The notes beneath the pieces are model-generated. The model searched no databases, was not told where the DNA came from, and saw only the letters and a program-made list of their open reading frames with translations. DNA of 64,000 bases from Primulina eburnea (Eukaryota; Streptophyta; Magnoliopsida; Lamiales; Gesneriaceae), in contig NC_133101.1 in the NCBI RefSeq assembly GCF_022965805.1, forward strand, positions 17,827,054-17,891,053, read 5' to 3'. The position numbers were made by a program, and so were the translations under genes. Every line of letters begins with the position of its first letter. Position 1 is the first letter of the stretch. This document shows, one piece after another, positions 7,050 through 46,323 of the stretch.

Positions 7050-7064
7050 TTTCTCCCCCTCTTA
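7050..7064 (-). other. Polypurine tract of the nested minus-strand gypsy element
   Basis: On the minus strand this reads AAGAGGGGGAGAAA directly before the LTR. That is the expected primer for plus-strand synthesis. Confidence 0.85.
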
Positions 7065-7150
7065 GATAAGAGTTCATCCTCGAACTCATAAATAATTAAT
7101 CATGCAGTATATGCAAAACAGTATAATCGAAACTAAAAGGAAGACTTACA

Positions 7151-11676: not shown

Positions 11677-11937
11677 AAATCTGATTATCAAACTGATTAG
11701 TATACAATCAATACCATCTGTCTCAGCCCTCCTCTGATCATATACCTCTGATTGAGAATCGGTTCTGATTCAGGCTTGACAATTATATGCTGTAACTCAA
11801 CTCAGATACAATACAACATATAATAGGGAAAGCAATAAATCATGCTAGCACATCAAAAGCAAGGAAGATGACTCGATCTACCCCGCTCATTCTACTCTAT
11901 CTCAGTCTACAGAACCAACAGCTCTGATACCACCTGT
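11677..11937 (-). other. Leader with Met-tRNA primer binding site
   Basis: This is the untranslated leader between the 5' LTR and gag. At 11921-11932 the minus strand reads TGGTATCAGAGC, complementary to the 3' end of initiator Met-tRNA, five bases from the LTR. Nothing else is recognisable. Confidence 0.88.
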
Positions 11938-18557: not shown

Positions 18558-20136
18558 TGTTGTCACTTTGATTGTTGCACTCCCAAGAGCAGGTTGTCCA
18601 CAAGTAGTATAATTCGGTGAGTCCGATATCGTATCCACAGGGAAGCTAAGGTAATTACAAGTCCACTACAATATCTTTTTGTTTTGTTTTTGTTTTTGTT
18701 TCTTTTTAATTTTAATTGTTTGAATCTTTAATGGATAAATTTTAATTGTTCAAATTTTAATTTAAATAGTTGAGATTAAAAGATCCACTCTTGGTATTTT
18801 AATAAAGTTAACATTAACGAACAATATTGAAATCCACTTAATAAAAAGGCTCCAATATATTAAATAATCATATTTATATTATTGTTATATATTATTATCT
18901 TATAAGTATATAATATAAACCAAAACTTATAAATGTGGTCAAGTATTTATTGTGTTATATATATTTGTAAACACTAAATCAAGGTTCCCACTTTAAATGG
19001 TTGGTAAAACCAAACAAACATTTAAATGGTACCAATAAATTAATACTATAATATATTCATATATAATAAATCAAGGAATCCAAGTTAAATGGTTGGTAAA
19101 ACCAAACTAACATTTAAATGGTTCCAAGAATTTAATATTATAATATATTTATATATACTAAATCAAGGCATCCACTTTAAATGGTTGGTAATACCAAACT
19201 AACATTTAAATGGTTCCAAGAATTTAGTGTAACATATAGCAACAATAAATCAAAACTCCGACTTATAAGTATGGTATAAAAATGCTTAAACAAATAAATA
19301 TAACATAAACAATAAATAATGATTAAATAATATAAAACATAGATTCTTACCTTTTAATAACCTTATTATCATGCCAAGAGTTTCACCTTATCATCTCAAC
19401 TTTAGGAAGTTAGCTATTCATTATTCAAAGTGTAAAACTTTGAATATGAAATTAACATGCTAATTGTATTTAAATGAAGAAATAAAGAGAAAATATAGAG
19501 AGAAATATTATGAACTCAAAGATTTGTTCATAGAATGAGGGATATCTCAATACATTACAATGCACCCCTATTTATAGCCAAATTTGGGGAGACAACCACA
19601 GATAAAATATTATTTTTTTATACATAAGTCTTCATTGGTGTTCCAAGATATTATATTATATTACACATCACTTTTGAAAATCTTCTTCTCCGAATTTGCT
19701 TCTTCACATAAAAAGAAACATGTGGATAATTGAGTTGTCTAGTTGTGGTATTTTTTTCAGATTATTTGACCAAGTAATTTCAGAGATATGGTCAAAATAC
19801 TAGAGCATGGTAAAACTGCCATTCCTTCTGTAACTTTATTTGTTGCTTAATTTGATCCCAATTGTGAGAGAATTTTTATTTCATGCTCTTCATCAATATT
19901 GTAGATATTATCATCAACTTTCTACAGGTCCAAGAATCATCTTAATCCCTTTTGCAACGCCAATGTTATTCTTGTTTTATCGAACCTGTAAAAATAGTAA
20001 AAACTTATAATTACACAACAACTTATTTTTTATACAATTTATTATAAAAAGTATAATATTTAAACATTTAATAAAACAAAAACTATAAATTTATATTATA
20101 AAACATTTAATTAATGTACAATTTTTATGTTTATCA
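18558..20136 (-). repeat. Athila LTR 2, shared by copies A and B
   Basis: It starts TGTTGTCACTTTG and ends TTTATCA. It is simultaneously the 5' LTR of copy A (primer site on its left) and the 3' LTR of copy B (polypurine tract GGTTGGGGGTG on its right, minus strand). No target duplication lies at either side, as expected for an internal LTR of a tandem element. Confidence 0.93.
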
Positions 20137-21126: not shown

Positions 21127-23244
21127 TGTAATGCCCGAATTTTGATATAATATAGCAGTAGTGTGATGGTTCTTGGCTTTACATTATGATATGAATGGTA
21201 ATGATGTTATAGAATGGAATAGATAATGGATGGGTAGAATCAAAGGTGGAATTTGAGCTAAATAGGTAATGGACGTGCAGAAACGGTATGAAAAATGTGG
21301 CAGTAGTTGTGGTTTTTAGCATAATATTTTGTATATTGATCCAATTGATGTAAGGCCTTTTCCATTAGAAAGATAAGACATAAGGCTATAACTTTTCAGT
21401 TTTGAGTTTTGTTCAAATCATTAGGGAAGATGAGCCAAAAGCGCCCCGAAGTGTGTCGTGCGTACCGTCGTTCCTACAATGACACATGTTGGGAGAATTG
21501 GAATCACTTTTTACTCAGACATCAAAATAAGCTGAAATTTTGGGAGATGAAAGACAAGACATAGGGCTACAACTTTGTAGTTTACCACTTTTCCTAATTC
21601 TGACCGGAAGAGGCGTTTCTGAAGCGATCTTTAAAGTACCTGTGCGGAGAGTGGCGCCCGAGCGGTAAGAATCTACCGCCCGAGCGCCAATGTTTCTGGA
21701 TTTTTGGGTTTCTAACAGCATGGTCCACGCTAGGGCGGTAATATGTGACCGCCCGAGCGCCCAGGAAGTCAAAAAACGTGTTTTGAGGTTTGCATGGTAT
21801 ATTTTAGCTTGGGAAATGATTTTTGTATCATTTCTTTTCATCCTTCTCTTCTCTATATCGGTTTAGAGCTAGGGTTCTTCATTTTTCCTTTCATCTTCTA
21901 ATTGCTTCTTCAATCCATGGGAGATTTGTTCAAGTAAATTATGAAATGAAGTTAGATTTGTGATCCTCTCTCCAAGATCTCCATGATGGTGTAAGTATGT
22001 TATATTTTTATTCAAGTTTGGAAATGGGTTGAAGTTTAGAATTGATATTTGAATTGATATTTGAGATATAGAGATGTTGGAGATGTTGTGATTGTGTTGG
22101 TTTGAATTTAAAATGGAATTGAAGAGGAGCTAACCTTTTAGCACACATGCCATGTGTTTGATGAAATGATCCAATGAATGTTTTTATGGAATATTATGAT
22201 TAAGAAATCTATGGACCTTGATTTGAAGCCGTATTGGATTGATTATGAATTTTGAACAGAAATTACTCTATTTTGATAGATGATCAAAATCCTTGAGTTA
22301 TAGTAGAATTCAAAGGTTCAAGACTTCTCACATACGCATTTCGGTCTTCTGTTGGTAATATTTGAAAGGTATGTTACAGTCGGTAACGTACGTGGTAAAA
22401 GTATCATTTTTATTTTTATATTGAAAATTCTATGGCTCGATGAATTACTTGTGATTTGATGATGATTGTGGCCTTGAGATGAGTTTATTATGATATCGAG
22501 ATGATGATGATATTGATTTGCATCATTACATTGCATATTGAGCCACTTGTCGATTCAGATTTGATATGGTGGAGGTCGCCTTGATATATATTTATTGGAC
22601 GTATGGGGCTATAGTTGAGTTGGCATAGTGTATGCGGAGGTCGCTGCTATGGCCTGAATACTCTCTATAGGCGCACCATAGTCTTGGGATTGTAGAACAC
22701 AACACACCACCTCGAGCGGATGAGTCGGTGGATGTTGTTGGGGGATTCTCTTCCCTTGGGTACCCGATGACCAGATGATTCACTTGATCTTGAGATTTAT
22801 TGATAGCCCACAGCTTCTGATCATGCATTGCATTATATTGCATCGTTATGAATTGTATATGAGATATTTGAAATTTTAATTCTCATATGTTATTGATTGT
22901 ATCATACTGGATTTATACTCACCGGCATGTCGGCTACCTCTTGTTTTCATGTGCTTGACGGTAGGTGAGGCGAGGCTTGGGATGCCAGAGTCCAGTTCTA
23001 GGCGAGAAGATACGAGTTAGAGTGAGATTCTCGGGTCTTAGGAGCTATTTGATGATGTTTGGATTACTTTTGTTCACTAGTTATTTTGACATGTTGAAAA
23101 TTATATTTCAAACATTTGAGACATTTAAATTATTCTGACGATGTTTATGTCAGTTTGTCAACAAGAAATTATGTATTTTATTAAATCGTTTGGTTTGTTA
23201 TATTTATAATTATTGGTATTAGATATCGGACCTGGGGCCCTACA
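21127..23244 (+). repeat. 5' LTR of the nested plus-strand gypsy element
   Basis: It runs from TGTAATGCCCGAATTTTG to GGGGCCCTACA and is followed five bases later by the primer site. ORFs inside it, such as 22592-22843, reappear in the 3' LTR only because the LTR is repeated. Confidence 0.95.
21652..21761. repeat. GC-rich inverted motifs in the LTR
   Basis: GGCGCCCGAGCGGT near 21653 and ACCGCCCGAGCGCC near 21675 face each other and could fold into a hairpin. A second pair, CGCTAGGGCGGT near 21728 and ACCGCCCGAGCGCC near 21748, follows. The 3' LTR holds the same set near 28676-28785. It is similar in style to, but distinct from, the ACCGCGGGTGCGGT clusters of the other LTR families. Confidence 0.75.
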
Positions 23245-23503
23245 ACAGGTGGTATCAGAGCGTAAGATATTTGGGAACAGGGTAGATCGAGTCAGTTTGA
23301 ATTGCTTGATCATGTGATATATTTGCTAGCATTTTCATTGTGCTATGATGTGAAATACATGATCATAATTGAGATACTATATTGTTGAGCTTTATTCTAT
23401 ATTTTGAGATTGTTGAGTCTCAAGAGCCAGAGATGATTGATACAAGATTGAGATGATTATGATATTGTGATTTTATATGTGTTTGATCTATTTTATATCA
23501 GAC
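23245..23503 (+). other. Leader with Met-tRNA primer binding site
   Basis: TGGTATCAGAGC at 23250-23261 is complementary to the 3' end of initiator Met-tRNA. The rest of the leader to the gag ATG is unremarkable AT-rich sequence. Confidence 0.9.
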
Positions 23504-24553
23504 ATGGCTACTCGAGGTAGAGGTCGTGGTAGACCTAGACAGGACATACCAGTGGCACAAGATCAGGGCAGTGCTACTCATACTCAGATGGATATAATTC
23601 CGACTCCGATGGAGATACTATTAGCCAGATTTCAGTCTTTGCACCCACCGATGTTGAAGGGTACCGAGAATGCATTAGAGTGTGAGAACTGGTTGGAGAA
23701 TATGGATCAATTATTTGAATCTCTTGAGTATCCAGATGATCGTAGAATCAAATTAGTTGTTCATCAGTTATTGGATGTTGCTAAGAGTTGGTGGATAATG
23801 ACCAAGAAAGCTTTAGAGGGTCGAGGTACGATTGTTACCTGGGATATTTTTAAATCTGAATTTTATCATCGTTTCTTTCCTACCTCTTACAGGAAAGATA
23901 GGGGAGCCGAGTTTGCAAATTTAAAGCAGGGAAATCTGAATATTGAGGACTATGTTGCTAAGTTCTCGAATTTACTGAGATTTGCTCCTCATGTAGCATC
24001 CGATGAAGAAGCTAAGGCCGATCACTTCATAAATGGTCTTAATCCTGATATCTTTACCCTGGTTAATACTGGAAGACCTAACACTTTTGCTGAGGCTCTT
24101 GATCGAGCCAAGGGAGCTGAAACTGGAATCATTAGGCAGAGAGGTTTTCAGTATTCGCAACGACCCCAACAGCCACAGTTCAGGCAACAGTTCAGACAAG
24201 GTAATAGTGGCGGTAACAGTGGAAACATTAGAGAGGAGTTCAAGGCTAGAGGTAAACAATTTAAGAGGCATGGAAGTAATTTTTCGAGTTCTAGTGGATC
24301 GAGACAGTCTGGTTCAGTTCATAGCACTGGTTATTCAGGCCCGACTTGTGGTCAGTGTGGTGGTAGACATTATACAGATCAGTGTAGAGGAATCTCAGGA
24401 GCTTGCCACTTGTGTAACCAGGTAGGACACTATGCTCGAGTGTGTCATAATCGTGGCATTGAAATATCTCAGAGTGGGGGATCATTGAGACAGACACCTC
24501 ACCAGAATCGTCAGACCCCTACAGTTCATTCTCATCAGCAATCAAACCGGTAA
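23504..24553 (+). pseudogene. Gypsy gag of the plus-strand element
   Basis: It starts at ATG 23504 (MATRGRGRGRPRQD). An upstream in-frame ATG at 23477 lacks support. The capsid domain shows AKSWWIMTKKALEG, FYHRFFPTSYRKDRGAEF and [22 protein letters not shown] Gln/Ser-rich basic linker and the zinc knuckle CHLCNQVGHYARVC for RNA packaging follow. Translation ends at TAA 24551-24553, where the aligned frame simply continues into protease. The stop is therefore best read as a nonsense mutation (CAA to TAA) rather than a natural gag terminus, although a programmed gag stop cannot be excluded. Confidence 0.92.
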
Positions 24554-25051
24554 GATCAGAACAAACAGAGTGGTAACCACAGGGTAGGACAGCCACCTAG
24601 ACAGCAGGCTCGAGTTTTTGCACTCACTGAGGATGAGGCACATAATGCTCCAGATAACGTCATTCCAGGTAATTGTTTTCTCTCAGGTTATCCTGCTTAT
24701 GTTTTGATGGATACGGGTGCATCACATACTTTCATATCTGAGCACTTTGTCACATTGCATTCGTTGCATTCTATACCATTATCATCTACCTTATCTATTT
24801 CTACTCCACTGGGTAAAGTGATGAGGTCAGCTGAAATGATAAGTAGTTGTGAATTTTGTTATGAGGATAATGTTATTGAGCTTGATTGTATTGTATTGGA
24901 GATGTCTGATTTTGACTGCATAGTTGGCATTGACATGTTGACAAGATACAGGGCTACTGTAGATTGTTTTCAGAAGGTTGTTAAGTTTAAGCCTGATATG
25001 ACAGATCACTGGACATTCTATGGTAAGGGTTCTCGAGCTAAGATTCCTTGA
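24554..25051 (+). pseudogene. Gypsy protease segment of the plus-strand element
   Basis: It continues the gag frame after the TAA with [15 protein letters not shown] and then the aspartic protease with active site [11 protein letters not shown] and a second conserved block, [11 protein letters not shown]. There is no ATG near its beginning. It ends out of frame at TGA 25049-25051 because one base is missing around 25048 compared with related elements; the true continuation is the frame starting there. Confidence 0.9.
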
Positions 25052-28044
25052 TATCTGTTTTGTCCATGACTCGTCTGTTGCAGAAAGGAGAAGAATGTTT
25101 CTTGGTTTATGCGATTGATATTTCAAGGTCAGTACCTAAATTGGCAGATATTCCAATTGTTAGTGAATTTTCAGATGTATTTCCAGATGAAATTCCAGGA
25201 TTTTCTCCAGTCCGAGAGGTTGAGTTCAACATTGAGTTGATGCCAGGTACACAGCCTATTTCTAGAGCTTCTTATAGGATGGCGCCGATTGAACTGAAGG
25301 AACTAAAGGAACAACTTGAGGATCTATTGGCTAAAGGATATATAAGACCAAGTGTTTCACCTTGGGGTGCTCCGGTTTTATTTGTGAAGAAGAAAGACGG
25401 GTCTATGAGGCTTTGTGTTGATTATAGACAATTGAATAAAGCCACAGTAAAGAATAAGTATCCTTTGCCAAGGATTGATGATCTTTTTGACCAGTTGCAA
25501 GGTTCTTCAGTATATTCTAAGATTGATTTAAGATCCGGATATCATCAGTTAAGAGTTAGAGAGGCAGATGTGCCTAAGACTGCTTTTCGTACAAGGTATG
25601 GGCATTTTGAATTTTTGGTTATGCCTTTTGGGTTGACCAATGCACCTGCGGTATTTATGGATTTGATGAACCGTGTGTTTCAATGGTATATAGATCAATT
25701 TGTTGTGATCTTCATTGATGATATTCTTATTTATTCAAAGTCTGAAATTGAGCATGCTGAGCACTTGAGAGCTGTTTTGCAAATTTTGAGAACTGAAAAG
25801 TTGTATGCTAAATTATCGAAATGCGAGTTTTGGTTGGATAGAGTGGTTTTCCTTGGACATGTGATTTCAAGTGCAGGTATATCAGTTGATCCGAGTAAAG
25901 TTGAGGCAGTCATCAATTGGTCTAGGCCGACATCAGTTCCTGAGGTACGTAGTTTTATGGGTTTGGTAGGATATTATCGCAGATTTATTGAAGGATTCTC
26001 ACAGATTGCAAGGCCAATTACCCAACTGACACAAAAGAATGCACCATTTATTTGGTCATCGGCATGTGAGAATAGTTTTGTTGAACTTAAGAAAAGATTG
26101 ATTAGTGCTCCAGTTCTGACTATTCCATCAGGTGAAGGAGGATTTACAGTGCACACTGATGCTTCTCATCAAGGATTGGGTTGTGTATTAATGCAGCATG
26201 GCTGTGTTGTTGCCTATGCTTCAAGACAGTTGAAGCCACATGAGTCTAGATACCCAGTGCATGATTTGGAACTAGCAGCAGTGGTTTTTGCGCTAAAGAT
26301 TTGGCGTCACTACTTGTATGGGGAAACATTTGAGATATTCACTGATCATAAGAGTTTGAAATACCTCTTTTCACAAGCGGAGCTGAACATGAGACAGAGA
26401 CGTTGGTTAGATTTGTTGAAAGACTATGATTGCGAGATAAAATATTATCCGGGTAAGTCGAATGCAGCAGCCGATGCTTTGAGCAGAAAAGTATGTAATA
26501 TGTCTTTGATCACTAGCAGTGTATCTGATCTAGTAGAAGAATGTTGTCTTTCTGGTTTGGATTTTGTGGTAAATACTCAACCTGTAAGAGTATTTATGAT
26601 TCAGGCAGAGCCCGAGTTGTTTGTAAAAATTAAAGAGGCACAAAGGTTAGATCAAAGCATTCAGAAATCAGTTGAACTTGTCAAATCAGGACATCAATCA
26701 GAATTTCAGGTCAGTAATGAGGGTATTTTGTTTGTGAATGATCGTATTGTAGTTCCTGATATTTCAGAGTTGAGGATGCAGATTTTGCGTGATGCTCATT
26801 GCAGTAAGTTCAGTGTACACCTTGGAAGTAAAAAGATGTACAATGACTTAAAGAAACAATTTTGGTGGAAAAGAATGAAATCGGACATAGCAGAATTTGT
26901 ATCTCGTTGTTTGAATTGCCAACAAGTGAATGCAGAAAGAAAGCGACCAGGAGGTCTTTTGCATTGCCTTAAAGTTCCAGAATGGAAGTGGGATCATATC
27001 ACCATGGACTTTGTCACGAAATTGCCGAGGTCGTCGAGGGGTTGTGATTCAATTTGGGTTATCGTTGACAGATTAACCAAGTCTTCGTGTTTCATTCCTT
27101 ATCAGATGACATATAGGCATGATCAGATGGCCAGATTGTACATCAGAGAAGTTTTGAGATTGCATGGCATTCCTAAGTCAATTGTATCAGATCATGATCC
27201 CAGATTTTCTTCTCATTTTTGGCAGAGTATACAAGAGGCCCTTGGTACTCGTTTGCACTTGAGTACAGCATATCATCCTCAGACAGACGGACAGTCAGAG
27301 CGTACTATTCAGACATTAGAGGATATGCTGAGAGCTGTAGTTATGGATTTTGGCATTGGTTGGCAGGATTCGTTACCACTTGTTGAGTTTTCTTATAACA
27401 ACAGTTATCAAGTGAGCATTGGAATGTCACCATTTGAAGCATTATATGGCAGGAAGTGTCGATCTCCTCTATATTGGGATGATTTATCTGAAGCACCAAT
27501 TGTAGGACCTGATATGATAAAAGATATGACAGAGAAAGTGAAATTGATTCAAAGTCGTATGAGAGCTGCTCAGGATAGACAGGCTAAGTATGCGAACATC
27601 AGGAGACGACCGTTGATTTTTGAGAAAGGTGACAGAGTTTTTCTGAAAATATCTCCTTTTCGTGGTACAGTTAGATTTGGAAAGAAGGGTAAATTATCAC
27701 CGAGATTCATAGGTCCTTATGAGATTTTGGAACGTGTAGGTGATTTGGCTTATAGATTAGCTCTTCCTCCTGCGTTATCAGGTGTTCATGATGTTTTTCA
27801 TGTGTCCATGTTGAAGAAATATCATCCAGATCCTTCTCATGTACTTCCACCCGATGAGGTTGAGTTAGATCAGAATTTGAGCTACATTGAGAGACCGATT
27901 TAGATTCTAGACAGAAAAGATAAACAACTCAGAAATAAATTGATGCCATTGATTAAAGTACAGTGGAACGGACATGGTGTCGAAGAGGCAACTTGGGAAT
28001 TAGAAGATAAAATGAGACAAAAATATCCAGAATTATTCCAATGA
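25048..28044 (+). pseudogene. Gypsy pol: RT, RNase H, integrase and chromodomain-like tail
   Basis: This long open frame (about 950 codons) runs to TAG 27901-27903 and then in frame to the natural TGA at 28042-28044. RT carries [23 protein letters not shown] and the catalytic FIDDILIYS. RNase H carries [15 protein letters not shown] and [11 protein letters not shown]. Integrase has its HHCC region ending CLNCQQV and core residues in [18 protein letters not shown] and [12 protein letters not shown]. The last part, VEEATWELEDKM, resembles the tail of Tekay/Del chromoviruses. The internal stop replaces a glutamine codon. Apart from these breaks it is the best-preserved pol in the window. Confidence 0.94.
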
Positions 28045-28138
28045 AGTATGCTTCTATTCTTGGTTCTAATTTCAGTATTGATTATTATAAGTTAGACTTG
28101 AAAGAGATGATTGATTTCGAGGACGAAATCTATTTTTA

Positions 28139-28150
28139 GAGGGGAGGAAT
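28139..28150 (+). other. Polypurine tract of the plus-strand gypsy element
   Basis: AGAGGGGAGGAAT lies immediately before the 3' LTR. Upstream is a GAGGACGAAATC stretch that commonly precedes the tract in these elements. Confidence 0.88.
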
Positions 28151-30270
28151 TGTAATGCCCGAATTTTGATATAATATAGCAGTAGTGTGATGGTTCTTGG
28201 CTTTACATTATGATATGAATGGTAATGATGTTATAGAATGGAATAGATAATGGATGAGTAGAATCAAAGGTGGAATTTGAGCTAAATAGGTAATGGACGT
28301 GCAGAAACGGTATGAAAAATGTGGCAGTAGTTGTGGTTTTTAGCATAATGTTTTGTATATTGATCCAATTGATGTAAGGCCTTTTCCATTAGAAAGATAA
28401 GACATAAGGCTATAACTTTTCAGTTTTGAGTTTTGTTCAAATCATTAGGGAAGATGAGCCAAAAGCGCCCCGAAGTGTGTCGTGCGTACCGTCGTTCCTA
28501 CAATGACACATGTTGGGAGAATGGGAATAACGTTTTACTCAGACATCCAAATGAGCTGAAATTTTGGGAGATGAAAGACAAGACATAGGGCTACAACTTT
28601 GTAGTTTACCACTTTTCCTAATTCTGACCGGAAGAGGCGTTTCTGAAGCGATCTTTACAGTACCTGTGCGCAGAGTGGCGCCCGAGCGGTAAGAATCTAC
28701 CGCCCGAGCGCCAATGTTTCTGGATTTTTGGGTTTCTAACAGCATGGTCCGCGCTAGGGCGGTAATATGTGACCGCCCGAGCGCCCAGGAAGTCAAAAAA
28801 CGTGTTTTGAGGTTTGCAGGGTATATTTTAGCTTGGGAAATGATTTTTGTATCATTTCTTTTCATCCTTCTCTTCTCTATATCGGTTTAGAGCTAGGGTT
28901 CTTCATTTTTCCTTTCATCTTCTAATTGCTTCTTCAATCCATGGGAGATTTGTTCAAGTAAATTATGAAATGAAGTTAGATTTGTGATCCTCTCTCCAAG
29001 ATCTCCATGATGGTGTAAGTATGTTATATTTTTATTCAAGTTTGGAAATGGGTTGAAGTTTAGAATTGATATTTGAATTGATATTTGAGATATAGAGATG
29101 TTGGAGATGTTGTGATTGTGTTGGTTTGAATTTAAAATGGAATTGAAGAGGAGCTAACCTTTTAGCACACATGCCATGTGTTTGATGAAATGATCCAATG
29201 AATGTTTTTATGGAATATTATGATTAAGAAATCTATGGACCTTGATTTGAAGCCGTATTGGATTGATTATGAATTTTGAACAGAAATTACTCTATTTTGA
29301 TAGATGATCAAAGTCCTTGAGTTATAGTAGAATTCAAAGGTTCAAGACTTCTCACATACGCATTTCGGTCTTCTGTTGGTAATATTTGAAAGGTATGTTA
29401 CGGTCGGTAACATACGAGGTAAAAGTATCATTTTTATTTTTATATTGAAAATTCTATGGATCGATGAATTACTTGTGATTTGATGATGATTGTGGCCTTG
29501 AGATGAGTTTATTATGATATCGAGATGATGATGATATTGATTTGCATCATTACATTGCATATTGAGCCACTTGTCGATTCAGATTTGATATGGCGGAGGT
29601 CGCCTTGATATATTGATTTATTGGACGTATGGGGCTATAGTTGAGTTGGCATAGTGTATGCGGAGGTCGCTGCTATGGCCTGAATACTCTCTATAGGCGC
29701 ACCATAGTCTTGGGATTGTAGAACACAACACACCACCTCGAGCGGATGAGTCGGTGGATGTTGTTGGGGGATTCTCTTCCCTTGGGTACCCGATGACCAG
29801 ATGATTCACTTGATCTTGAGATTTATTGATAGCCCACAGCTTCTGATCATGCATTGCATTATATTGCATCGTTATGAATTGTATATGAGATATTTGAAAT
29901 TTTAATTCTCATATGTTATTGATTGTATCATACTGGATTTATACTCACCGGCATGTCGGCTACCTCTTGTTTTCATGTGCTTGACGGTAGGTGAGGCGAG
30001 GCTTGGGATGCCAGAGTCCAGTTCTAGGCGAGGAGATACGAGTTAGAGTGGGATTCTCGGGTCTTAGGAGCTATTTGATGATGTTTGGATTACTTTTGTT
30101 CACTAGTTATTTTGACATGTTGAAAATTATATTTCAAACATTTGAGACATTTAAATTATTCTGACGATGTTTATGTCAGTTTGTGAACAAGAAATTATGT
30201 ATTTTATTAAATCGTTTGGTTTGTTATATTTATAATTATTGGTATTAGATATCGGACCCGGGGCCCCACA
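28151..30270 (+). repeat. 3' LTR of the nested plus-strand gypsy element
   Basis: It matches 21127-23244 throughout, with scattered substitutions, and ends GGGGCCCCACA. The following 30271-30527 (ATTAC, then ATGTATGATATTT and so on) is the resumed noncoding part of Athila copy B; it holds nothing else. Confidence 0.95.
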
Positions 30271-30527
30271 ATTACATGTATGATATTTTTGCAAAAATTA
30301 CAAAGATACAAACAATAAACATGATTTTATTTTAAAATAACATTTTTTTTTAATTTTTATTAAAAAATTTTTTTACGAAAGTTTGTTCTCCCCCCAGTCA
30401 GAATATGACATTGTCCCTAATGTCAAAATAGCTATTAATAAAGATTACATAATGAAAGAGATATCATTTGGAATTTTATTGAAGATAACAAACTGAAACA
30501 AACGCAAACCAATCCACGACTTTTGAA

Positions 30528-31172
30528 TCAATGATCCAACTTTCTTTTTTTTTTTTTACTGCTTGATGGCGACCAATTGATCTTTGCTATCATCGGATCA
30601 GGCTTATGAACAAAAGCTTCCAAATCATCAATTAATTGGTCGGCAGTCGAAGCAGAGATGAGCATCCGTCGCGAATTTTCTAAAATGAAATTCTGTTCCA
30701 CAGCTTTATCAAGAAATGTCAACAAACTGTCATAATAATTATTTATATTCAACAAGCCCACATGTTTATTATGGATATTAAGTTGTGCCCAAGAAACAGT
30801 GTGAAAAATTTCTTCTAATGTACCAAAACCACCTTGTAGTGCGATAAAAGCATCAGAATTTTCAATCATTTTTGTGATTCTTTCATACATAGAAGAAACT
30901 TTTAATTTCTCCCCAATCGTAACACCTGTAATATTTCCTTCAGCTAAAGCTGTAGGAATAATACCCAAAACCTGACTACCTCCAAGATGAGCAGATGTTG
31001 AAACAGATCTCATTAACCCAATATTACCTCCCCCATATACCAAGTGAATTTTTCTCTCAGCCAATATCTTTCCAAGATTATTCGCTGCTTCTACAAACAC
31101 TTCATTTTTTCCAGGACTCGACCTACAAAATACACAAATATTTTTCAATGATTGTGTAGAGGATCCAGCCAT
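30528..31172 (-). CDS. LOG-like: LOG-like cytokinin riboside 5'-monophosphate phosphoribohydrolase carried by the Athila element, copy B
   Basis: An intact 214-codon ORF starts at ATG 31170-31172 (MAGSSTQSLKN) and covers the full length of plant LOG proteins. These cleave ribose phosphate from cytokinin nucleotides to release active cytokinin. Visible are CVFC at residues 13-16, LVYGGGNIGLM at 44-54, LGIIP at 69-73, the Arg in YER (98) and the catalytic loop GGFGTLEE (114-121). SWAQLNIH and VGLLNINNYY follow. The C-terminus is a Lys/Arg tail (KKKKRKLDH) resembling a nuclear localisation signal. There are no introns, whereas plant LOG genes normally have several, so it derives from a spliced transcript. 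Two conserved positions differ: Gly to Arg at 17 (CRSS) and Pro to Gln at 113, just before the GG of the loop. Activity is therefore doubtful although the frame is open. It lies on the element's sense strand, downstream of integrase. Confidence 0.9.
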   Translation of the reverse strand: MAGSSTQSLKNICVFCRSSPGKNEVFVEAANNLGKILAERKIHLVYGGGNIGLMRSVSTSAHLGGSQVLGIIPTALAEGNITGVTIGEKLKVSSMYERITKMIENSDAFIALQGGFGTLEEIFHTVSWAQLNIHNKHVGLLNINNYYDSLLTFLDKAVEQNFILENSRRMLISASTADQLIDDLEAFVHKPDPMIAKINWSPSSSKKKKRKLDH

Positions 31173-31176
31173 GTTT

Positions 31177-31374
31177 TTACTTTTTTTTTGGTCTGCGAAA
31201 ATAGAGAGAAAGATGAGAGATTTTATAGGGGTAATATGTTATCATGACAAAACAATGGGTCACAGCTGTAAACAGAATAAACAGTAAAAACAATAATGAC
31301 ACACATGCATATAAACAGTAGTGTGATTGTGGCTCACAATTTTCCTCTGGTTTTACATCCAGAAACGGCTTCAA
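31177..31374 (-). CDS. Short membrane-segment ORF, copy B
   Basis: It is the equivalent of 3711-3908, with a handful of differences. About 65 codons open without an ATG directly after the TAG at 31381-31383, in the same frame as the cysteine-rich ORF. A hydrophobic run (CLYACVSLLFLLFILF...) predicts one membrane helix; the end is basic (YFRRPKKK). Its stop precedes the LOG-like ATG by four bases. It could be expressed by readthrough of the TAG, by reinitiation, or not at all. No family is recognised. Confidence 0.45.
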   Translation of the reverse strand: MKPFLDVKPEENCEPQSHYCLYACVSLLFLLFILFTAVTHCFVMITYYPYKISHLSLYFRRPKKK

Positions 31375-31380
31375 CGCCTT

Positions 31381-31931
31381 CTATGAGTCGAGGATATGCT
31401 TCCCATCCAATTTTCTTATAAATTGGCAAACAGGGTCTTTTTTAGTCGGATTCCCAAGACTATTAAGATGACGCTCATCTTGGAATTGTTTCCATAAACG
31501 GAGAAGTTCAATATGCACGTGTCCACTAGAATGCGTCTCAAGAGTCAATAAGATGTTATCTAAAGACTCCTTACTCAGCCCATTCTTAATGAAATCAATT
31601 TTATCTTCTCTGTTATTGGAAACACAACCCAAAGATCTGCATCGTGTGTCACAAGTCCATCTTGCACACTTATGACAAACCCCTAACCTTTTGACCCTTC
31701 GTTTTTTCGCATAAGTGCTTTTTCCTAATCCAGCAAATACCGAATGAGCAATGATTGTGGAACTTCTCCTCCTAATCGGACCTTAGCTTCTATTACAAGA
31801 CGAATATCTTCTGGAATTCTTTTTTGCATTAGCAATCTCAATCTTTCATACCTTCTTGCATAATTTTTTCTTAGAACATTTTCAGAAATAGGGGGAAAAT
31901 ATTTACAAATTTTTGAGAGAATTTCATTCAT
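31381..31931 (-). pseudogene. Cysteine-rich, basic nucleic-acid-binding-like ORF, copy B
   Basis: The first frame starts at ATG 31929-31931 (MNEILSKICKYFPP) and ends at a TAG near 31725. The overlapping second frame carries the motif GLGKSTYAKKRR, then CHKC, further cysteines and a C-terminal region ending KHILDS before the TAG at 31381-31383. A Gly-x-Gly-Lys/Arg-Ser-Thr-Tyr-Ala-basic run immediately before a Cys-x2-Cys finger is characteristic of the small RNA-binding proteins of carlaviruses and relatives, which are plant-virus proteins linked to silencing suppression. Whether a single base change split one gene or two frames were always used is not resolved; copy A is split at about the same place. 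The viral relationship is inferred from the motif alone. Confidence 0.5.
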
Positions 31932-32109
31932 TTTGAAAAGAAAAGAAATGAATTTATTTTTTTTTTATTTTTGTATCAGCAATTGTGGGAAACTGATTAA
32001 ACCGACTATGAGAGCCACGGAGTACCGTTATCCGCCATTTAACCCGGAAAATAAAAAGATTAAGGAAACCTGAAATAAAAACAAACAAAATTAAATTCAA
32101 CACAAAAAA

Positions 32110-32946
32110 TCATGGATCGGAAAAGGAAATAAACTCTTCTTTAAAGATTTCATTTTCTAAAAATGTTTTAAGCTTTTGTCCATTTACTTTAAAAACATCA
32201 CCATTTTTAGGATTTTCAATTTCCATAGCTCCATAAGGATACACATGTTTTACAATATATGGGCCTGTCCATCTTGATCGTAATTTTCTTGGGAATATGT
32301 GAAGTCGAGAATTATAAAGCAAAACTTTTTTACTATTCTCAAAAGATTTTCTAAAAATTGTTTTATCATGAAATGATTTGATTTTTGCTTTATAAATCCT
32401 TGAATTCTCATACGCGTCATTTCTGAGTTCATCAAGTTCATTAAGTTGCAATTTACGCAATTTGCTGGCCTCATCCAAGCTTGAATTAAAAGTTTTGATC
32501 GCCCAATAAGCTTTATGTTCCAATTCCACAGGCAAATGACAATGTTTTCCATAAACCAACCTATAGGGAGACATATTCAATGATGTTTTAAAAGCTGTTC
32601 GATATGCCCAAAGTGCATCTTTTAGTCGCAGAGACCAATCTTTTCTATTTGAGTTAACAGTTTTTTCCAAAATTTGATTTATCTCCCTATTAGCTAATTC
32701 AACTTGTCCATTTGTTTGAGGATGATAAGGAGTAGTTACTTTGTGAGTAATACCATATTTTTTCATTAATGAAGCAAATGGTTTATTAACAAAGTGAGTT
32801 CCCCCATCACTTATCATGGCTCGAGGAATTCCAAATCTACTAAAAATATTTTCTTTCAAAAATTTGATGACGATTTTATGATCATTTGTTCGACATGGAA
32901 TTGCCTCTATCCATTTGGAAACATAATCAACTGCAACTAAAATATA
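32110..32946 (-). pseudogene. Athila copy B integrase, C-terminal two thirds
   Basis: It continues the integrase after the TAG at 32947-32949. Present are the second catalytic Asp ([10 protein letters not shown]), the Glu region ([16 protein letters not shown]), [13 protein letters not shown] and the C-terminal domain with [19 protein letters not shown], ending FISFSDP. This copy is uninterrupted and shows the empty site of the element nested in copy A. Downstream in element orientation, 31932-32109 is a noncoding spacer. Confidence 0.92.
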
Positions 32947-34968
32947 CTAGTATCCAAACGACAATGAAAAATATCCCATAAAATCAATTACCCAACAGTC
33001 AAAGATTTCAATTTCAATGATAGGATTCAAAGGCATCACGTTTCTTTTTGAAATCGCACCCAATTTTTGACAATTTTCACAGATCTTGCAGATTTCGTGG
33101 GTGTCTTTAAACAAAGTGGGCCAATAAAATTCACACTGCAGGATTTTTGCAGCTGTTTTCTTTGTAGAAAAATGTCCTCCGCATGCGTCTGAATGACAAA
33201 ATTTAATGACACTACTAACCTCATTGTCGGGTATGCAACATCGAAAAATTTGATCTGGACAATACTTGAATAGATACGAATCATCCCAATAAAAGTTTTT
33301 TACCTCATTCAGAAATTTTCTTTTATCTTGGAAACTCCATTGCGGTGGCATTTTTCCTGTCACAAGAAAATTTACTATGTTAGCAAACCAAGGTATAGTA
33401 GTAACTGAAAATAAATGTTCATCAGGAAAATTATCATCAATTGGTGCCATTTCACAAGATGATCCTATTGCTAGTCTCGATAAATGATCATCTACGACAT
33501 TCTCGGTTCCTTTTTTATCTTTGATTACAATGTCAAATTCTTGGAGCAACAAAATCCATCGTATCAGTCGTGGCTTTGCATCCTGTTTGGTCAACAAATA
33601 TCTAATAGCAGAATGATCAGTAAACACAATAGTTGTTGATCCAATCAAATAAGAACGAAATTTATCTAATGCAAATATTACAGCAAGTAGTTCTTTTTCA
33701 GTTGTGGAATAATTCATTTGAGCATTGTTTAAAGTTCTACTTGCATAATATATCACATAAGGCTTACCGTTTCTTCTTTGACCCAATACTGCACCGACTG
33801 CATAATCACTCGCATCGCACATGATTTCAAATGGTAAAGACCAATCAGGAGGTTGCATGATAGGAGCTGATGTTAAATGTCGAATGATTTTATCAAAAGC
33901 ATTTTGACATTCTTGAGTCCACTCCAATGCACTGTCTTTTATTAAGAGGTTACAAATGGGTTTAGAGATTAAACTAAAATCTTTTATAAACCTCCTATAA
34001 AATCCAGCATGTCCCAAAAATGAGCGAATTTCTTTAATGGTTTTTGGAGGGGGTAAATTGGCAATGACATCAACTTTTGCTTTATCAACTTCAATTCCAT
34101 GAGATGACACAATATGTCCCAAAACAATTCCAGAAGTAATCATGTAATGACATTTTTCCCAATTTAAAATAAGACCTTTTTCCTCACATCTTTTTAAAAC
34201 TTTTTCCAAATTTACAAGACAATTATCAAATGTACTCCCAAAAACAATTAAATCATCCATGAAAATCTCCAAAAAGTTTTCAACCATGTCGCAAAAAATG
34301 CTTAGCATACATCTTTGAAATGTTGCTGGGGCATTGCATAAACCAAATGGCATCCTTCTGAATGCAAATGTTCCAAAAGGACATGTGAATGTAGTTTTTT
34401 CTTGATCTTCGAGTGCAATGGGAATTTGATAATAGCCTGAATATACGTCAAGAAAACAGTAGTAGGAATGACCTGCTACTCTTTCTAAAATTTTATCCAA
34501 AAATGGTAATGGAAAATGATCTTTTCTAGTGGCATCATTTAATTTTCTATAATCAATACACATCCGCCAACTAGATGGGACTCGACTTGTTAACAATTCA
34601 CCTTTTTCATTTTTTATCACTGTGATGCCAGATTTTTTTGGAACTACTTGTGTTGGGCTTACCCACTTACTATCAGAAATAGGGTAGATAATTCGAACAC
34701 CAAGTAGTTTGAGAACTTCAGTTTTCACAACATCTTTCATGTGTGGATTTAATCTACTTTGTGGTTGTTGAGATGTTTTAGCATTTTCTTCTAAGTGATT
34801 TTTGTGAGTGCAAATTAGTGGATTAATGCCCTTAAGATCTTTTAGTGTCCAACCAATTGCATTTTTATGTCTTTTAAGCATATCAACTAATTTACCTTCT
34901 TGATTACTTGATAGTTTGGAAGAAATTACCACCGGATATGTTTCATCTTCTCCAAGGAATGCATACTT
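32947..34968 (-). pseudogene. Athila copy B RT, RNase H and integrase N-terminus
   Basis: The open frame of 661 codons lies between TAA (34969-34971) and TAG (32947-32949), both in frame with their neighbours. The RT domain includes [51 protein letters not shown] and the FMDD catalytic motif. RNase H includes [14 protein letters not shown] and [11 protein letters not shown]. The integrase zinc region holds [10 protein letters not shown] and [11 protein letters not shown]. Copy B has no frameshift here, unlike copy A. Confidence 0.93.
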
Positions 34969-37356
34969 TTATTCTTCTGGCAATGGTTTTAACTCCAATA
35001 TGGGTGGTTCATCTTTGTTCTCATATTTTGCCTCAAATTCTTTCGCTGATCCTGGTAACGAGTGATACCTGATAAAATCATCAAGATCAGTTTCACTTTT
35101 TTCTTTAACAGTATCAATTGAACAAATATCTAATTGGTCACGAGTACTCCCTTCTTGAATGTTTTCTTCCACAAGAGTTTCAATAAGATTTTCATCTTTA
35201 CTTTCATCTCCTTTGTCATGTGGTTGCTTACAAAGATTAAACACATTAAGCTCCAAAGTCATGTTACCAAATGACAACTTCATTATTCCATTCTTGCAAT
35301 TTATAAGAGCATTAGAAGTTGCCAAAAATGGACGACCTAAAATTACAGGAATTGCATTACAAGCTTCAATAGGTTGTGTATCTAAAACTATGAAATCGAC
35401 AGGATATACAAAGTTATCAACTTGGACCAACACGTCTTCTACCATACCTCTTGGCACTTTAACAGATCTATCAGCAAGTAAAAGTGTTACCGAAGTAGGT
35501 TTTAACTCGCCTAGATTGAGTTCTTGATAAACTGAATATGGAAGTAAATTCACACTAGCTCCAAGGTCAAGCAATGCTTTTTTAACTTTTCGTTCTCGAA
35601 TAATACAAGAAATAGTAGGACAACCTGGGTCTTTGTATTTCAAAGCATTATTATTTTGAATGATTGCACTTACTTGTTCGGCTAAAAATGCTTTCTTTTT
35701 CACATTCAATTTTCTTTTCATAGTGCACAAGTCTTTTAAAAATTTGGCATATGATAGTACCTGCTTTATTGCATCTAATAAAGGAATATTAACTTTTACT
35801 TGTTTAAAAATATCATATATATCAGAATTCAAATTTGATTTTTTTGTATTTTTTAATGCATGAGGGAATGGTGGTGGCGGTATCTGTTGATCCTCCTCTT
35901 CGCAAGTTATGGGTTCCACTTCCTTACCCTTTGGAGTTGATTTATCATCATCTTCACAAGGTTCAAGAATGGATTTTTCCACAACCTTACCACTGCGAAG
36001 GGTAATAACAGATTTTACCTGATCCATCGGTTGAGTTCCAGAAGTTCCAGTTTGTGAATGATGATCCTTGGGATTAGGCTGTGGTTGTGAAGGAAATTTA
36101 CCTTTTTCATGAACATTAAGGGCAGATGCAAATTTAGCAAGAGTATCTTTCAAATCTGTCATGGTTTGAGCAGTTTGAGTATTAACAGATTCTTGCTTTG
36201 CAATGAAAGAATTCAATATATCTTCCAAACTCTTTTTAGGTGGAGGAACATAAGGTGCATAATTTTGAAAATTTTGTTGATTTTGGAAATGTGGTTGTGA
36301 AAATTGTGCAGCATTATCATTCCTCCAACTAAAATTTGGATGATTTCGCCAATCTGGATTGTAACTTTGAGAAAATTGTTCAAAATTTGGCCTTTTGAAA
36401 TTGTTTAAAACATTGGCTTGTTCATGGAGACATTCTTTAAAAGAAGGCAAAGTGGGACAATCTTTTGTAGAATGATCACTTGTATCACAGATGTGACATG
36501 CAATTTCTTGAACAGATTTTAATTGACCATTCTTTTTCAATTCAAGTGCCTCAACTTTTCTTGCCAAAGAGGTAAATTTGGCTTGGAGATCATGTTCATC
36601 CTTGAGAGTGTACATACCTCCACCAGATGTGGGAGATTGAATCTTGTTTGATGGTTCAATTGTACCTATCGTGTCCCAATTTTGAGCATTTTCAGCTAAT
36701 GAATCGAGATACTCAATTGCCTCGTTTGGATCTTTATCTTCAAATGTTCCATTACATATAAATTCAACCATTTGCCTATCTTTAGGTGTTAAGCCTTCAT
36801 AAAATTGAGAAACAACTCTCCAAATTTCAAAACCATGATGAGGACAAAGATTAAGCAATTCTTTATATCTATCCCAACACTGATAAAAAGTTTCTCCTTG
36901 TTTTTGAGTGAAAGTGATGATTTGCCTTTTGAAAGAATTTGTTCTATGAGATGGAAAAAACTTTTTCAAAAATTGTTGTTGCAATTCATCCCAAGTTCGA
37001 ATGGATCCTGATCTAAGATTTTGTAGCCAAGTTTTAGCTTTATCTTTTAAAGAAAAAGGAAAAAGCTTAAGTCGAATGGTGTTCATGCTACAATTTATAT
37101 CATTATATGTGTTGCACAGTTCTTCAAATTCTCGTAAATGCATGTATGGATTTTCAGAATCTAAGCCATGAAAGTTGGGTAAAAGTTGGATAATACCAGG
37201 CTTAAAATTGAAATGAGATGCATCAGGGGGAAAAACTAGACATGAAGGTGCACTAGTACGTGTAGGATTCATGTGATCTCTAAGTGTTCTTCGCCTATCA
37301 TGATCATGTTGAGATTGAATTTCATCTTCATTTTCTTGGATGGGTTCTTCTGCCAT
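34969..37356 (-). pseudogene. Athila copy B gag and protease
   Basis: A continuous frame runs from ATG 37354-37356 (MAEEPIQENEDE) through capsid (YMHLREFEE, KAKTWLQNLRSG, LKKFFPSHRTNSF, CPHHGFEIW) and a zinc knuckle (CHICDTSDHSTKDC). A Gln/Asn-rich linker, the ITLRSGKVV block and the protease (ALLDLGASVNLLPY, PVILGRPFLAT) follow. The TAA at 34969-34971 replaces a leucine codon that copy A retains (LPEELKYAF), so it is a nonsense mutation. Gag packages the element RNA; protease matures the particle. This is the most intact gag of the Athila pair. Confidence 0.93.
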
Positions 37357-37553
37357 GTTTTGTGAAAATAAAGGGTTATTTCGAATTAGTCGACCACTAA
37401 GTGTACGTGACCAAATAATGCTCATGCAAATGCAAAAGAAAAGAAGAAAAACAAACAAAAGCAATAAAAATTCAAAGAAAAAAAATAAAATATAAATAAA
37501 ATTAAATAGACTTGAAATTAAATTATACTTCCCCGACAACGGCGCCAAAAACT
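37357..37553 (-). other. Athila copy B leader with tRNA-Asp primer binding site
   Basis: The primer site is at 37530-37547. It differs from the copy A site by one base (GACAAC instead of GGCAAC), so pairing with tRNA-Asp would have one mismatch. The leader is otherwise A-rich with no gene. Confidence 0.85.
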
Positions 37554-39130
37554 TGTTGTCACTTTGATTGTTGCACTCCCAAGAGCAGGTTGTCCACAAG
37601 TAGTATAATTCGGTGAGTCCGATATCGTATCCACAGGAAGCTAAGGTAATTACAAGTCCACTACAATATCTTTTTGTTTTGTTTTTGTTTTTGTTTCTTT
37701 TTAATTTTAATTGTTTGAATCTTTAATGGGTAAATTTTAATTGTTCAAATTATAATTTAAATAGTTGAGTTTAAAAGATCCACTCTTGGTATTTTAATAA
37801 AGTTAACATTAACGAACAATATTGAAATTCACTTAATAAAATGGTTCAAATATATTAAATAATCATATTTATATTATTGTTATATATTATTATCTTATAA
37901 GTATATAATATAAACCAAACTTATAAATGTGGTCAAGTATTTATTGTGCTATATATATTTGTAAACACTAAATCAAGGTTCTCACTTTAAATGGTTGGTA
38001 AAACCAAACAAACATTTAAATGGTACCAATAAATTAAGACTATAATATATTCATATATAATAAATCAAGGAATCCAAGTTAAATGGTTAGTAAAACCAAA
38101 CTAACATTTAAATGGTTCCAAGAATTTAATACTATAATATATTTATATATAATAAATCAAGGCATCCACTTTAAATGGTTGGTAATACCAAAATAACATT
38201 TAAATGGTTCCAAGAATTTAGTGTAACATATAGCAACAATAAATCAATACTCCCACTTATAAGTATGGTATAAAAATGCTTAAAGAAATAAATATAACAT
38301 AAACAATAAATAATGATTAAATAATATAAAACATATATTCTTACCTTTTAATAACCTTATTATCATGCCAAGAGTTTCACCTTATCATCTCAACTTTAGG
38401 AAGTTAGCTATTCATTATTCAAAGTGTAAAACTTTGAATATGAAATTAACATGCTAATTGTACTTAAATGAAGAAATAAAGAGAAAATATAGAGAGAAAT
38501 ATTATGAACTCAAAGATTTGTTCATAGAATGAGGGATATCTCAATAAATTACAATGCACCCCTATTTATAGCCAAATTTGGGGAGACAACCACAAATAAA
38601 ATATTATTTTTTTATACATAAGTCTTCATTGGTGTTCCAAGATATTATATTATATTACACATCACTTTTGAAAATCTTCTTCTCCGAATTTGCTTCTTCA
38701 CATAAAAAGAAACATGTGGATAATTAAGTTGTCTAGTTGTGGTATTTTTTTCAGATTATTTGACCAAGTAATTTGAGAGATATGGTCAAAATACTAGAGC
38801 ATGATAAAACTGTCATTCCTTCGGTAACTTTATTTGTTGCTTAATTTGATCCCAATTGTGAGAGGATTTTTATTTCATGCTCTTCATCAATATTGTAGAT
38901 ATTATCATCAACTTTCTACAGGTCCAAGAATCATCTTAATCCCATTTGCAACGCCAAGGTTATTCTTTTTTTATCGAACCTGTAAAAATAGTAAAAACTT
39001 ATAATTACACAACAACTTATTTTTTATACAATTTATTATAAAACATATAATATTTAAACATTTAATAAAACAAAAACTATAAATTTATATTATAAAACAT
39101 TTAATTAATGTACAATTTTTATGTTTATCA
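37554..39130 (-). repeat. Athila LTR 3 (5' LTR of copy B)
   Basis: It has the same termini as LTRs 1 and 2 (TGTTGTCAC ... TTTATCA). On the right it is bordered directly by the TTGAC duplication and resumed copia coding sequence. Confidence 0.93.
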
Positions 39131-39135
39131 TTGAC
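39131..39135. repeat. Target-site duplication TTGAC, right copy
   Basis: It pairs with 238-242 and marks the outer end of the tandem Athila block. Confidence 0.92.
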
Positions 39136-44342: not shown

Positions 44343-46323
44343 ATATGAATTTATCAACTTGAACCAACACATCTTCTGCAATACCTTTTAGGTATTTTGA
44401 TTGACATATCCGCTAGTAAGAGAATAACATATGTGAGTTTTAATTCTCCTAAATTAAGTTTTTCATAAACTGAATAAGGAAGTAAATTCACACTTGCTCC
44501 CAAATCTAATAAAGCTTTTTAAATTTTATTTTCTCCAATAATAAATGAAATTGTTGGACAACCAGGATCTTTATATTTTAAACTAGAATTATTTGTAGAA
44601 TAGAATTCACTTGTTCATCCAAGAATGCTTTCTTCTTCACATGCAATTTTCTCTTAACATTACATAAGTCTTTTAAAAATATTTCATAAGAAGGTACTTG
44701 TTTAATAGCATCTAATAATGAAATTTTTTTTTTACTTTTTTAAAAACTTCATAATTATCGGAATCGTTTTTTTATTTTTTATGATTTGTTAATGTGAGGA
44801 AACATGGGAGGTTTATTTGACTCATTTACTATTTCAGATGATTTATCTTTCACCATCTTATTCTTAGAATTTAAGGTATCATCATTTTCAAAAGTATCAA
44901 GATTAACATCCTTACTCTTTGAATTTAAATGATCTTTGTTTTCATTGCTATATGGATCATTAACTATTCTACCACTTCTAAGGGTAATAAAAGATTTTAT
45001 TTGATTAATTTTATTATTATTTAATTCTTGATTTTGATTTTTAAGATTAGGTTGAGGTTGAGATGGAAATTTTTCTTTCTCATTAATATTAAGTGCAGAT
45101 GCAAATTTTGCAAGAGTTTCTTTCAAATCACTTATAAATTGACTGTTTTGAATATTGATAGACTCTTGCTTTTGGATAAATGCATGAATTACATCTTCAA
45201 AGTTTTTTCTTGGAGGTGTAACATAAGGAATATAAACGTGATGATTTTGGTTATTTTGAAAATGTTGTTGTGAAGGTTGTGCATTATTATCATTCCTCCA
45301 ACTAAAATTAGGATGATTTTTCCATCCAAGATTATATGATTTTGAAAAATGATCTAATATTGGTTTTTTTATAATTGTTAACATAATTTGCTTGTTCATG
45401 GAGACATTCCTCAAATAAAGGTAATGTTGAACAATCTTGTGTAGAATGATAATGTGTATCACATATATGACAAATAATTTCTTGAATACTTTTTAATTGA
45501 CCACTCTTTTTCATTTTTAATGACTCAATTTTTCTTGCCAAAGATGCAAGTTTAGCTTGAATATCTGTATCGTCTTTAAGATTATAGATACCACCCTCAT
45601 TTGTTCAATTATTGATTTTAGTTGTTAGTTGTTCTATTTTTCCTATATTATCCCAATTTTGAGCATTTTCTGCTAATGAATCCAAATATCCATAGCTTCA
45701 TTTGGGTTTTTATCTTCAAAAGTTCCATTACACATAAATTCTATCGTTTTCTATTTTTAGGTATTAGACCTTCATAAAATTGAGAAACTGTTCTCCATGT
45801 TTCAAAACCATGATGTGGGAATGTCTTAAGTAATTCTTTATATCTATCCTAATATTGATAAAATGGTTCTCATTGTTTTTGGGAAAAAGTTGTAATTTGT
45901 CTTTTAAAAGAGTTTGTTCTATGGGGAGGGAAATTTTTTTTGAGAAATTGTTGTTGCATTTCTTCCCATGATCTTATTGAATTTGCTAATTTTGTAGTCA
46001 TGTTTAGCTTTATCTTTTAAAGAAAAATGGAAAATCTTTAATCGAACTATATCCATGCGACAATTTTGATCATTATAAGTGTTACAAACTTCCTCAAATT
46101 CTCTAAGATGTAAATATGGATTTTCAGAATCTAAGCCAAGAAAAGTTGGTTAAAGTTGAATAATTTGAGGTTTAAAGTTGAAATTAGATGCATCAGGAGG
46201 AAAAACTAAACAAGAGGGGGCACTAGTTCTAATAGGGTTCATATGGTGCCTAAGTGTCCTTAATTAATCGTGTTCTTGATTATTATTATTATCATTATCT
46301 TGATTATTAGAATTATCATCCAA
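44343..46323 (-). pseudogene. Relic of Athila-type gag and protease
   Basis: It aligns in order with 16405-18250 of Athila copy A. The longest open piece (44779-45462) holds NHPNFSWRNDN, FASALNINEKEKFPSQPQPN and FITLRSGRIV. A zinc knuckle CHICDTHYHSTQDC occurs near 45460-45500. The protease part at the left is cut by the copia LTR. Several small deletions and stops are present. Long Asn runs near the gag start come from AAT repeats. Confidence 0.88.

Follow-up and report, generated by a model that had tools for sequence, protein, structure and literature searches.

A LOG-type gene as a likely long-resident accessory gene of an Athila-like retrotransposon in Primulina eburnea

Why should an intron-free gene of the cytokinin-activating LOG type lie inside a retrotransposon, and is it a gene of that element or a stray piece of its host? 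The question is raised by a stretch of 64,000 nucleotides from Primulina eburnea (the window; contig NC_133101.1, forward-strand positions 17,827,054–17,891,053, assembly GCF_022965805.1), in which two tandem units of an Athila-like Ty3/gypsy element with long terminal repeats (LTRs) each carry a LOG open reading frame (ORF) downstream of an ORF resembling the cysteine-rich protein (CRP) of carlaviruses. Most LTR retrotransposons are thought to require only gag and pol. The reading that we favour, with a probability of about 0.6, is that LOG has long resided in the element as an accessory gene, likely encoding an active cytokinin-freeing enzyme beside the CRP. It is supported by the position of LOG, its presence throughout the element family, its single old origin, the constraint on it, its LOG fold, its basic tail, the match of its neighbour to the Carla_C4 profile, and the splicing of element RNA; catalysis by LOG, a nuclear location and a benefit to the element are proposals.

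The LOG ORF of the right-hand unit (30528–31172, minus strand) is open over 214 aa, contains no intron and ends in the basic tail KKKKRKLDH. It lies in sense, with gag, reverse transcriptase (RT), RNase H and integrase all on the same (minus) strand, between the integrase ORF (ending at 32110) and the 3' LTR (18558–20136), a nested element (21127–30271) intervening. The original prediction, made from the letters of the window, had described just such a full-length LOG in an Athila-like element, and this arrangement stands. The ORF scores 119.2 bits against Pfam Lysine_decarbox (cut-off 27) and 161.9 bits against TIGR00730 (cut-off 96.35), and matches the Arabidopsis LOG3 structure 2a33 with an E-value of 3e-58. 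Its predicted model has a predicted local distance difference test score (pLDDT) of 89.4, residues 205–214 falling below 50, and a Foldseek search with the model returns 2a33 as the best hit (TM-score 0.95 of the target, 50% identity). Plant LOG enzymes such as At2g37210 (2a33) and At5g11950 (1ydh) share with the element LOG the fold, the glycine loops, R98 (the Arg of the MxxR site) and GTxEE; the element LOG differs from them in being intron-free, ~50% identical and element-carried, and in having a basic and often LxLxL-containing tail.

The two LOG copies in the window are not in good repair. The GGxGTxxE motif of the right-hand copy reads QGGFGTLEE, as against PGGFGTLEE in relatives, and four of its residues deviate from the family rows: R17 (G in 62/62 others), R55 (59/61), Q113 (P in 58/62) and H137 (P in 59/62). 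R55 is common to both window copies, while R17, Q113 and H137 are absent from the left-hand one. That second copy (3066–3706, minus strand) does occupy the same relative place, as had been predicted, but it is broken, with codon 90 turned into a stop and an insertion of 2 nt shifting the frame near codon 104. We read the window copies as decaying examples, not as the working form; the right-hand LOG is itself probably damaged and does little. Of the codons at which the two copies differ, 14 are replacement and 3 silent. Decay of this kind is what one would expect if LOG were a neutral passenger, taken from the host, riding along and falling apart. The wider family speaks against such a passenger, as the next results show.

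The 812-Mb source assembly was searched with the LOG query, giving 1440 first-look candidates, the best 150 of which were scored. All 150 match, at 93–95% identity (the window itself excepted), and are spread over contigs C1–C18 and small contigs. Together with the profile scores, these matches make the LOG identity more than chance. No stop occurs in 148 of the 150, an intact fraction that is biased upward since the scored set (150 of 1440) was ranked by LOG likeness. Many of the scored rows are tied in score, which points to a recent burst. Twenty-eight loci chosen by LOG were then fetched, two of them repeats (L009 = L003 and L010 = L004), leaving 26 distinct loci. The order integrase–CRP–LOG–LTR recurs among them: part of the CRP and LOG are present in 26/26, integrase in 24/26 and the LTR in 24/26, the missing cases including fetched pieces that end before the feature would begin. 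When 20 loci were instead picked by a CRP query alone, LOG was found at full length in 15, in part in 3, and was not seen in 2. The search for further copies that the original prediction had proposed thus turned up a family that carries the LOG segment, rather than copies that lack it. LOG is a property of the element family, not of a single locus. The two loci without LOG in the fetched stretch (L041 and L043) have the CRP-like ORF, and possibly represent a LOG-less variant or a deletion. A second element-LOG subfamily also exists in P. eburnea (P0019 and P0024); it is ~64% identical to the window ORF and has the tail KKRKFM.

Selection, another check that had been proposed, was measured as the ratio of replacement to silent polymorphism (pN/pS) among element copies. 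In the CRP-chosen loci, pN/pS is 0.66 for LOG (bootstrap 0.56–0.80, n = 16) and 0.70 for integrase (bootstrap 0.52–0.97, n = 17), and in-frame stops occur in 5/16 LOG and 5/17 integrase sequences. The closeness of the two ratios indicates that LOG behaves as an element gene. In the LOG-chosen loci, the window left aside, the ratios are 0.29 for LOG (a selection-biased value), 0.46 for the CRP (0.31–0.62) and 0.38 for integrase (0.31–0.48). Nearly all aligned element LOGs retain R98, GTxEE and the glycine loops. A neutral passenger would not be expected to show an integrase-like ratio in copies that were not chosen by LOG, nor to form one clade that is 55–80% identical with its family motifs intact, and we consider this explanation improbable.

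Where, then, did the element LOG come from? The original prediction held that a spliced host transcript had been captured by reverse transcription and since replicated with the element. The intron-free ORF is in keeping with this, and host LOGs are indeed split by introns: 14 matches to host LOGs in the same genome (64–91% identity) end at query residue 43–49, an exon edge, and one of them (C11) resumes in a second exon, whereas the element copies run unbroken from residue 2 to ~60. A recent capture within P. eburnea is nevertheless contradicted by the tree. Whatever the species of the host LOG compared, element-type LOGs are ~50% identical to it, against ~60–80% among themselves; over the C-terminal piece, identity to the host LOG loci of the same genome is 35–41%. 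A tree of 63 rows unites the 36 of element type in one clade (support 100/96) apart from host LOGs, and the clade persists when the tail region is removed (99/100). Its named members come from Populus, Diplodiscus, Reevesia, Paulownia, Primulina, Xanthoceras, Acer and Parasponia, and the Diplodiscus copies alone comprise eight proteins whose locus tags bear seven different chromosome prefixes. The window ORF, which was to be compared with host LOGs, groups with the element-type LOGs of other eudicots and not with those of hosts. The ~50% identity and the single cross-family clade lead us to reject a recent capture from the P. eburnea host, to which we assign almost no weight; what survives of the earlier proposal is that a LOG has multiplied with the element, as the scored copies attest.

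These results indicate, on the evidence of the alignments, that the element LOG is old, with a single origin across eudicot families. Capture by reverse transcription is plausible. In approximately unbiased (AU) tests, joining the element clade with LOG8, LOG7 or LOG1/3 types was not rejected (p = 0.386, 0.461 and 0.275, respectively), and neither was placing the host LOGs in one clade (p = 0.403); with none of the four alternatives rejected, the host donor lineage is not singled out. Among viral contigs, no close relatives of LOG, of the CRP-like ORF B described below or of the element-LOG alignment were found. The sizes of homologue clusters are no proof of repeats, since host LOG clusters can also be large.

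LOG-type domains in Gypsy elements have already been published: Gypsy consensus sequences with a YgdH (LOG-type) domain are reported from Citrus sinensis, C. clementina and Populus trichocarpa (PMC9289625, which cites Steinbauerova et al. 2011). Those elements resemble the present one in holding a LOG-type domain within a Ty3/gypsy consensus; the passage concerned is one sentence in a domain screen, which does not speak of a tail, a clade, a CRP neighbour, splicing or constraint, and Primulina belongs to another order. A further parallel is the Phalaenopsis Gypsy element with an ORF for an AlkB N6-methyladenosine (m6A) demethylase (PMC9289625), likewise a case in which an element has taken up an enzyme directed at RNA or the host. 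The enzyme there is a different one, and its activity was assayed.

The feature that most clearly sets element LOGs apart is the C-terminal tail. Among 120 element-LOG search hits, 104 have LxLxL within the last 15 residues and 110 a basic patch within the last 25; the corresponding figures for 120 host LOGs, a set rich in LOG1/3 and LOG8 types, are 0 and 1. By eye, eight further LOG7-like or related host rows also have no such tail. After clustering at 82%, LxLxL remains in 25 of 36 representatives and the basic tail in 33. The LxLxL end, which resembles an ERF-associated amphiphilic repression (EAR) motif, is present in 25 of the 36 element-clade rows and absent from the window copy. Such a tail could confer nuclear localisation and corepressor binding.

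The tail also gives footing to another explanation, in which the LOG core is a nucleotide-binding scaffold, used either as a nuclear adaptor (through the basic tail and an often EAR-like LxLxL for TOPLESS-type corepressors) or as a nucleotide-pool enzyme aiding reverse transcription. Apart from the one basic patch, this tail is absent from the host LOGs and found in most element LOGs. Furthermore, the score against the curated cytokinin-LOG equivalog NCBIfam NF058542 is far below its cut-off (110.4 bits versus 300; host plant LOGs were not scored for comparison), and residues neighbouring the catalytic site vary among element LOGs. On the other side, R98, GTxEE and the glycine loops persist almost throughout, as expected if catalysis matters, and EAR function and nuclear targeting are predictions from motifs. 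We judge the scaffold unlikely, yet better placed than a neutral passenger.

The neighbour of LOG is the second accessory protein of the element. In the window copy it is split into two ORFs in different frames, which were searched separately: ORF A (31725–31964, minus strand), the N-terminal part, and ORF B (31381–31782, minus strand), the carlavirus-type cysteine-rich part, with the basic stretch AKKRRVKR and the finger C-X2-C-X8-C-X4-C. A single open frame spans both parts at 20 of the 26 distinct LOG-chosen loci. ORF B matches Pfam Carla_C4 with 25.7 bits (cut-off 20.9, E = 1.1e-5) and reaches 20.7 bits against Viral_NABP (cut-off 23); its second copy in the left-hand unit (3915–4316, minus strand) scores 18.7 bits against Carla_C4, under the cut-off, and 18.8 against Viral_NABP. 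All five natural open CRP frames taken from other loci match Carla_C4 (24.6–30.5 bits), and one of the five exceeds the cut-off of Viral_NABP (range 20.0–23.9 bits). None of ten shuffles of ORF B gave a Carla_C4 match, and ORF B has no relatives in the PDB. In the genome, the CRP query gave 1833 first-look candidates, with 150 of the 150 scored matching.

In carlavirus CRPs, a basic signal precedes the finger C-X2-C-X12-C-X4-C (PMC8839810), and suppression of silencing is ascribed to these proteins (PMC8839810, PMC8742542); for one virus, a connection of the CRP with a transcription factor and with proliferation of cells is reported (PMC8839810, PMC8742542), and mandarivirus CRPs are similarly described (PMC12172455). 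The element CRP is like these carlavirus and mandarivirus proteins (Carla_C4, Viral_NABP) in its basic stretch directly before the C4 finger and in being a small accessory protein encoded on the 3' side. It differs in being encoded by a retrotransposon with LOG downstream, and in its spacing of X8 instead of X12, which makes it a carlavirus-like relative and no standard member. By analogy, its function may be that of its viral relatives.

Between the CRP-like ORF and LOG lies a GT-AG leader intron of 145 nt (31193–31337, minus strand), which ends 20 nt before the LOG ATG and contains TATAAAA and a pyrimidine tract. The exact junction produced by removing this leader occurs at 25 sites genome-wide, and at none in a reversed control; these 25 junctions of a removed GT-AG leader indicate that element RNA has in the past been made, spliced and re-copied. 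Among 46 distinct loci, the leader donor is kept in 42, the junction is present in one, and three (L044 included) are unassigned by pattern. In 16 of 20 junction sites that were fetched, LOG runs from base 6 or earlier through its end. Four junction copies have a 212-aa open LOG frame as called by script, and in L061 and L068, whose start context the script did not recognise, LOG is 100% identical to an intact copy. The bases following the leader junction are of three kinds. The retro-copied spliced forms (L044, L052 and L061–L080) constitute a natural record of element splice sites. L052 is without two GT...AG stretches of the unspliced copies, namely the leader and 348 nt within LOG (30680–31027, minus strand); the latter is also missing from L067, which has the leader junction, and its removal as an intron destroys LOG. 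In L044, the leader donor is joined to a different acceptor inside LOG. A pattern search located the LOG start in 11 of the 46 loci, and 10 of these 11 have TATAAAA in the leader; an internal promoter there is possible beside splicing, and splicing may help to express LOG. The original prediction had mentioned neither the leader intron nor the carlavirus-type ORF ahead of LOG, and it had also passed over the conserved tail and the damage to the window copy.

If LOG is a resident accessory gene of the element, the following can be proposed: (i) the CRP and LOG form a two-gene 3' module at the site where retroviruses carry env, (ii) intact copies would yield active LOG, freeing cytokinin bases in cells that transcribe the element, (iii) the basic tail would direct LOG to the nucleus, (iv) the CRP, like its viral relatives, might dampen RNA silencing or alter transcription, and (v) LOG and CRP together would keep host cells dividing and permissive, favouring the element. 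A stronger form makes this a virus-like module for host manipulation, in which the CRP and a nuclear-targeted LOG, aided by splicing and with an EAR-like LOG end in many eudicot relatives, lower silencing and push division as some proliferation-inducing viruses do; this we regard as a tentative possibility, and doubtful as it stands.

Several observations weigh against LOG as a constrained and active accessory gene, in addition to the upward bias of the intact fraction and the 2 of 20 CRP-chosen loci without LOG in the fetched stretch. Firstly, the CRP is less clearly constrained than LOG: its pN/pS in the CRP-chosen loci is 0.85 (bootstrap 0.67–1.03, n = 20), not clearly below 1, and 7 of the 20 copies have in-frame stops. 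Secondly, many element LOGs lack the Lys that comes after the Arg in their host counterparts. Thirdly, LxLxL has been lost from the tail in both window copies and in most fetched copies, the window lineage retaining the basic part. Fourthly, the 25 leader junctions may stem from few events. Finally, it is the clade, the number of copies and the report already in print on Citrus and Populus that suggest carriage of LOG by elements in other species.

If the favoured reading is true, a constrained hormone-activating enzyme beside a virus-type, suppressor-like protein would mean that plant elements can manipulate host cells, and the purpose of the third gene region in Athila-like elements would become testable. 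Element genes may lie behind many of the 'LOG' models annotated in plants (e.g., the Populus LOGL10-like ones), a point that bears on counts of the LOG family. In the literature covered, where most subscription papers were outside the scope, a CRP-like ORF beside an element LOG, the tail and the splicing were not found; tail and EAR motifs were not searched for.

The carrier itself is arranged in the window as LTR-internal-LTR-internal-LTR, with three LTRs of ~1578 bp each and termini TG...CA, all on the minus strand. LTR A (243–1820) is the 3' LTR of the left-hand unit and LTR C (37554–39130) the 5' LTR of the right-hand unit, both from LTR comparison; the middle LTR B (18558–20136) serves as the 3' LTR of the right-hand and the 5' LTR of the left-hand unit. 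The outer LTRs are flanked by a common 5-bp duplication, TTGAC (238–242 and 39131–39135), which points to a single insertion later turned into a two-unit tandem. Each unit measures 11.4 kb, the nested element excluded. LTR distances in the array are 0.0167–0.0206, which a substitution rate of 1.3e-8 would place at around three quarters of a million years, as an order of magnitude only. By profile matches, the right-hand unit contains a gag and aspartic protease ORF of 876 aa (34969–37599, minus strand) and an RT, RNase H and integrase zinc-binding domain (32947–34932, minus strand); an in-frame stop divides these from the integrase part of pol (32110–32946, minus strand).

An additional RNase H is a mark of the Tat lineage and would be revealed by RVT_3; Pfam gave no RVT_3 match in the element, and H2C2 comes ~100 residues after RNase H. 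The sequence TGGCGCCGTTGCCGGGGA adjoins LTR B on its internal side as the primer-binding site, which may be of the tRNA-Asp type, a type tied to Athila. Non-chromoviruses use tRNA-Asp among other primers (PMC6317226). The element is like the Athila lineage (OTA superclade, PMC6317226) in having no extra RNase H, an extra ORF after pol and, possibly, a tRNA-Asp-type primer site; it differs in giving no match to Pfam ATHILA ORF-1, and its extra ORFs are the CRP and LOG.

Each tandem unit harbours one nested Ty3/gypsy element: N1 (5261–13728, minus strand) lies inside pol of the left-hand unit, and N2 (21127–30271, plus strand) separates LOG from the 3' LTR in the right-hand unit. The two are in opposite orientation and ~73% alike over 3.5 kb, with LTR distances of 0.0199 (N1) and 0.0105 (N2). 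Beyond the array, a fragment at 44348–46261 is 76–78% similar to the gag region of the LOG-bearing element, and a large inverted repeat at 55034–58379, spanning ~3.3 kb, has arms of up to 484 nt with 79–93% complementarity.
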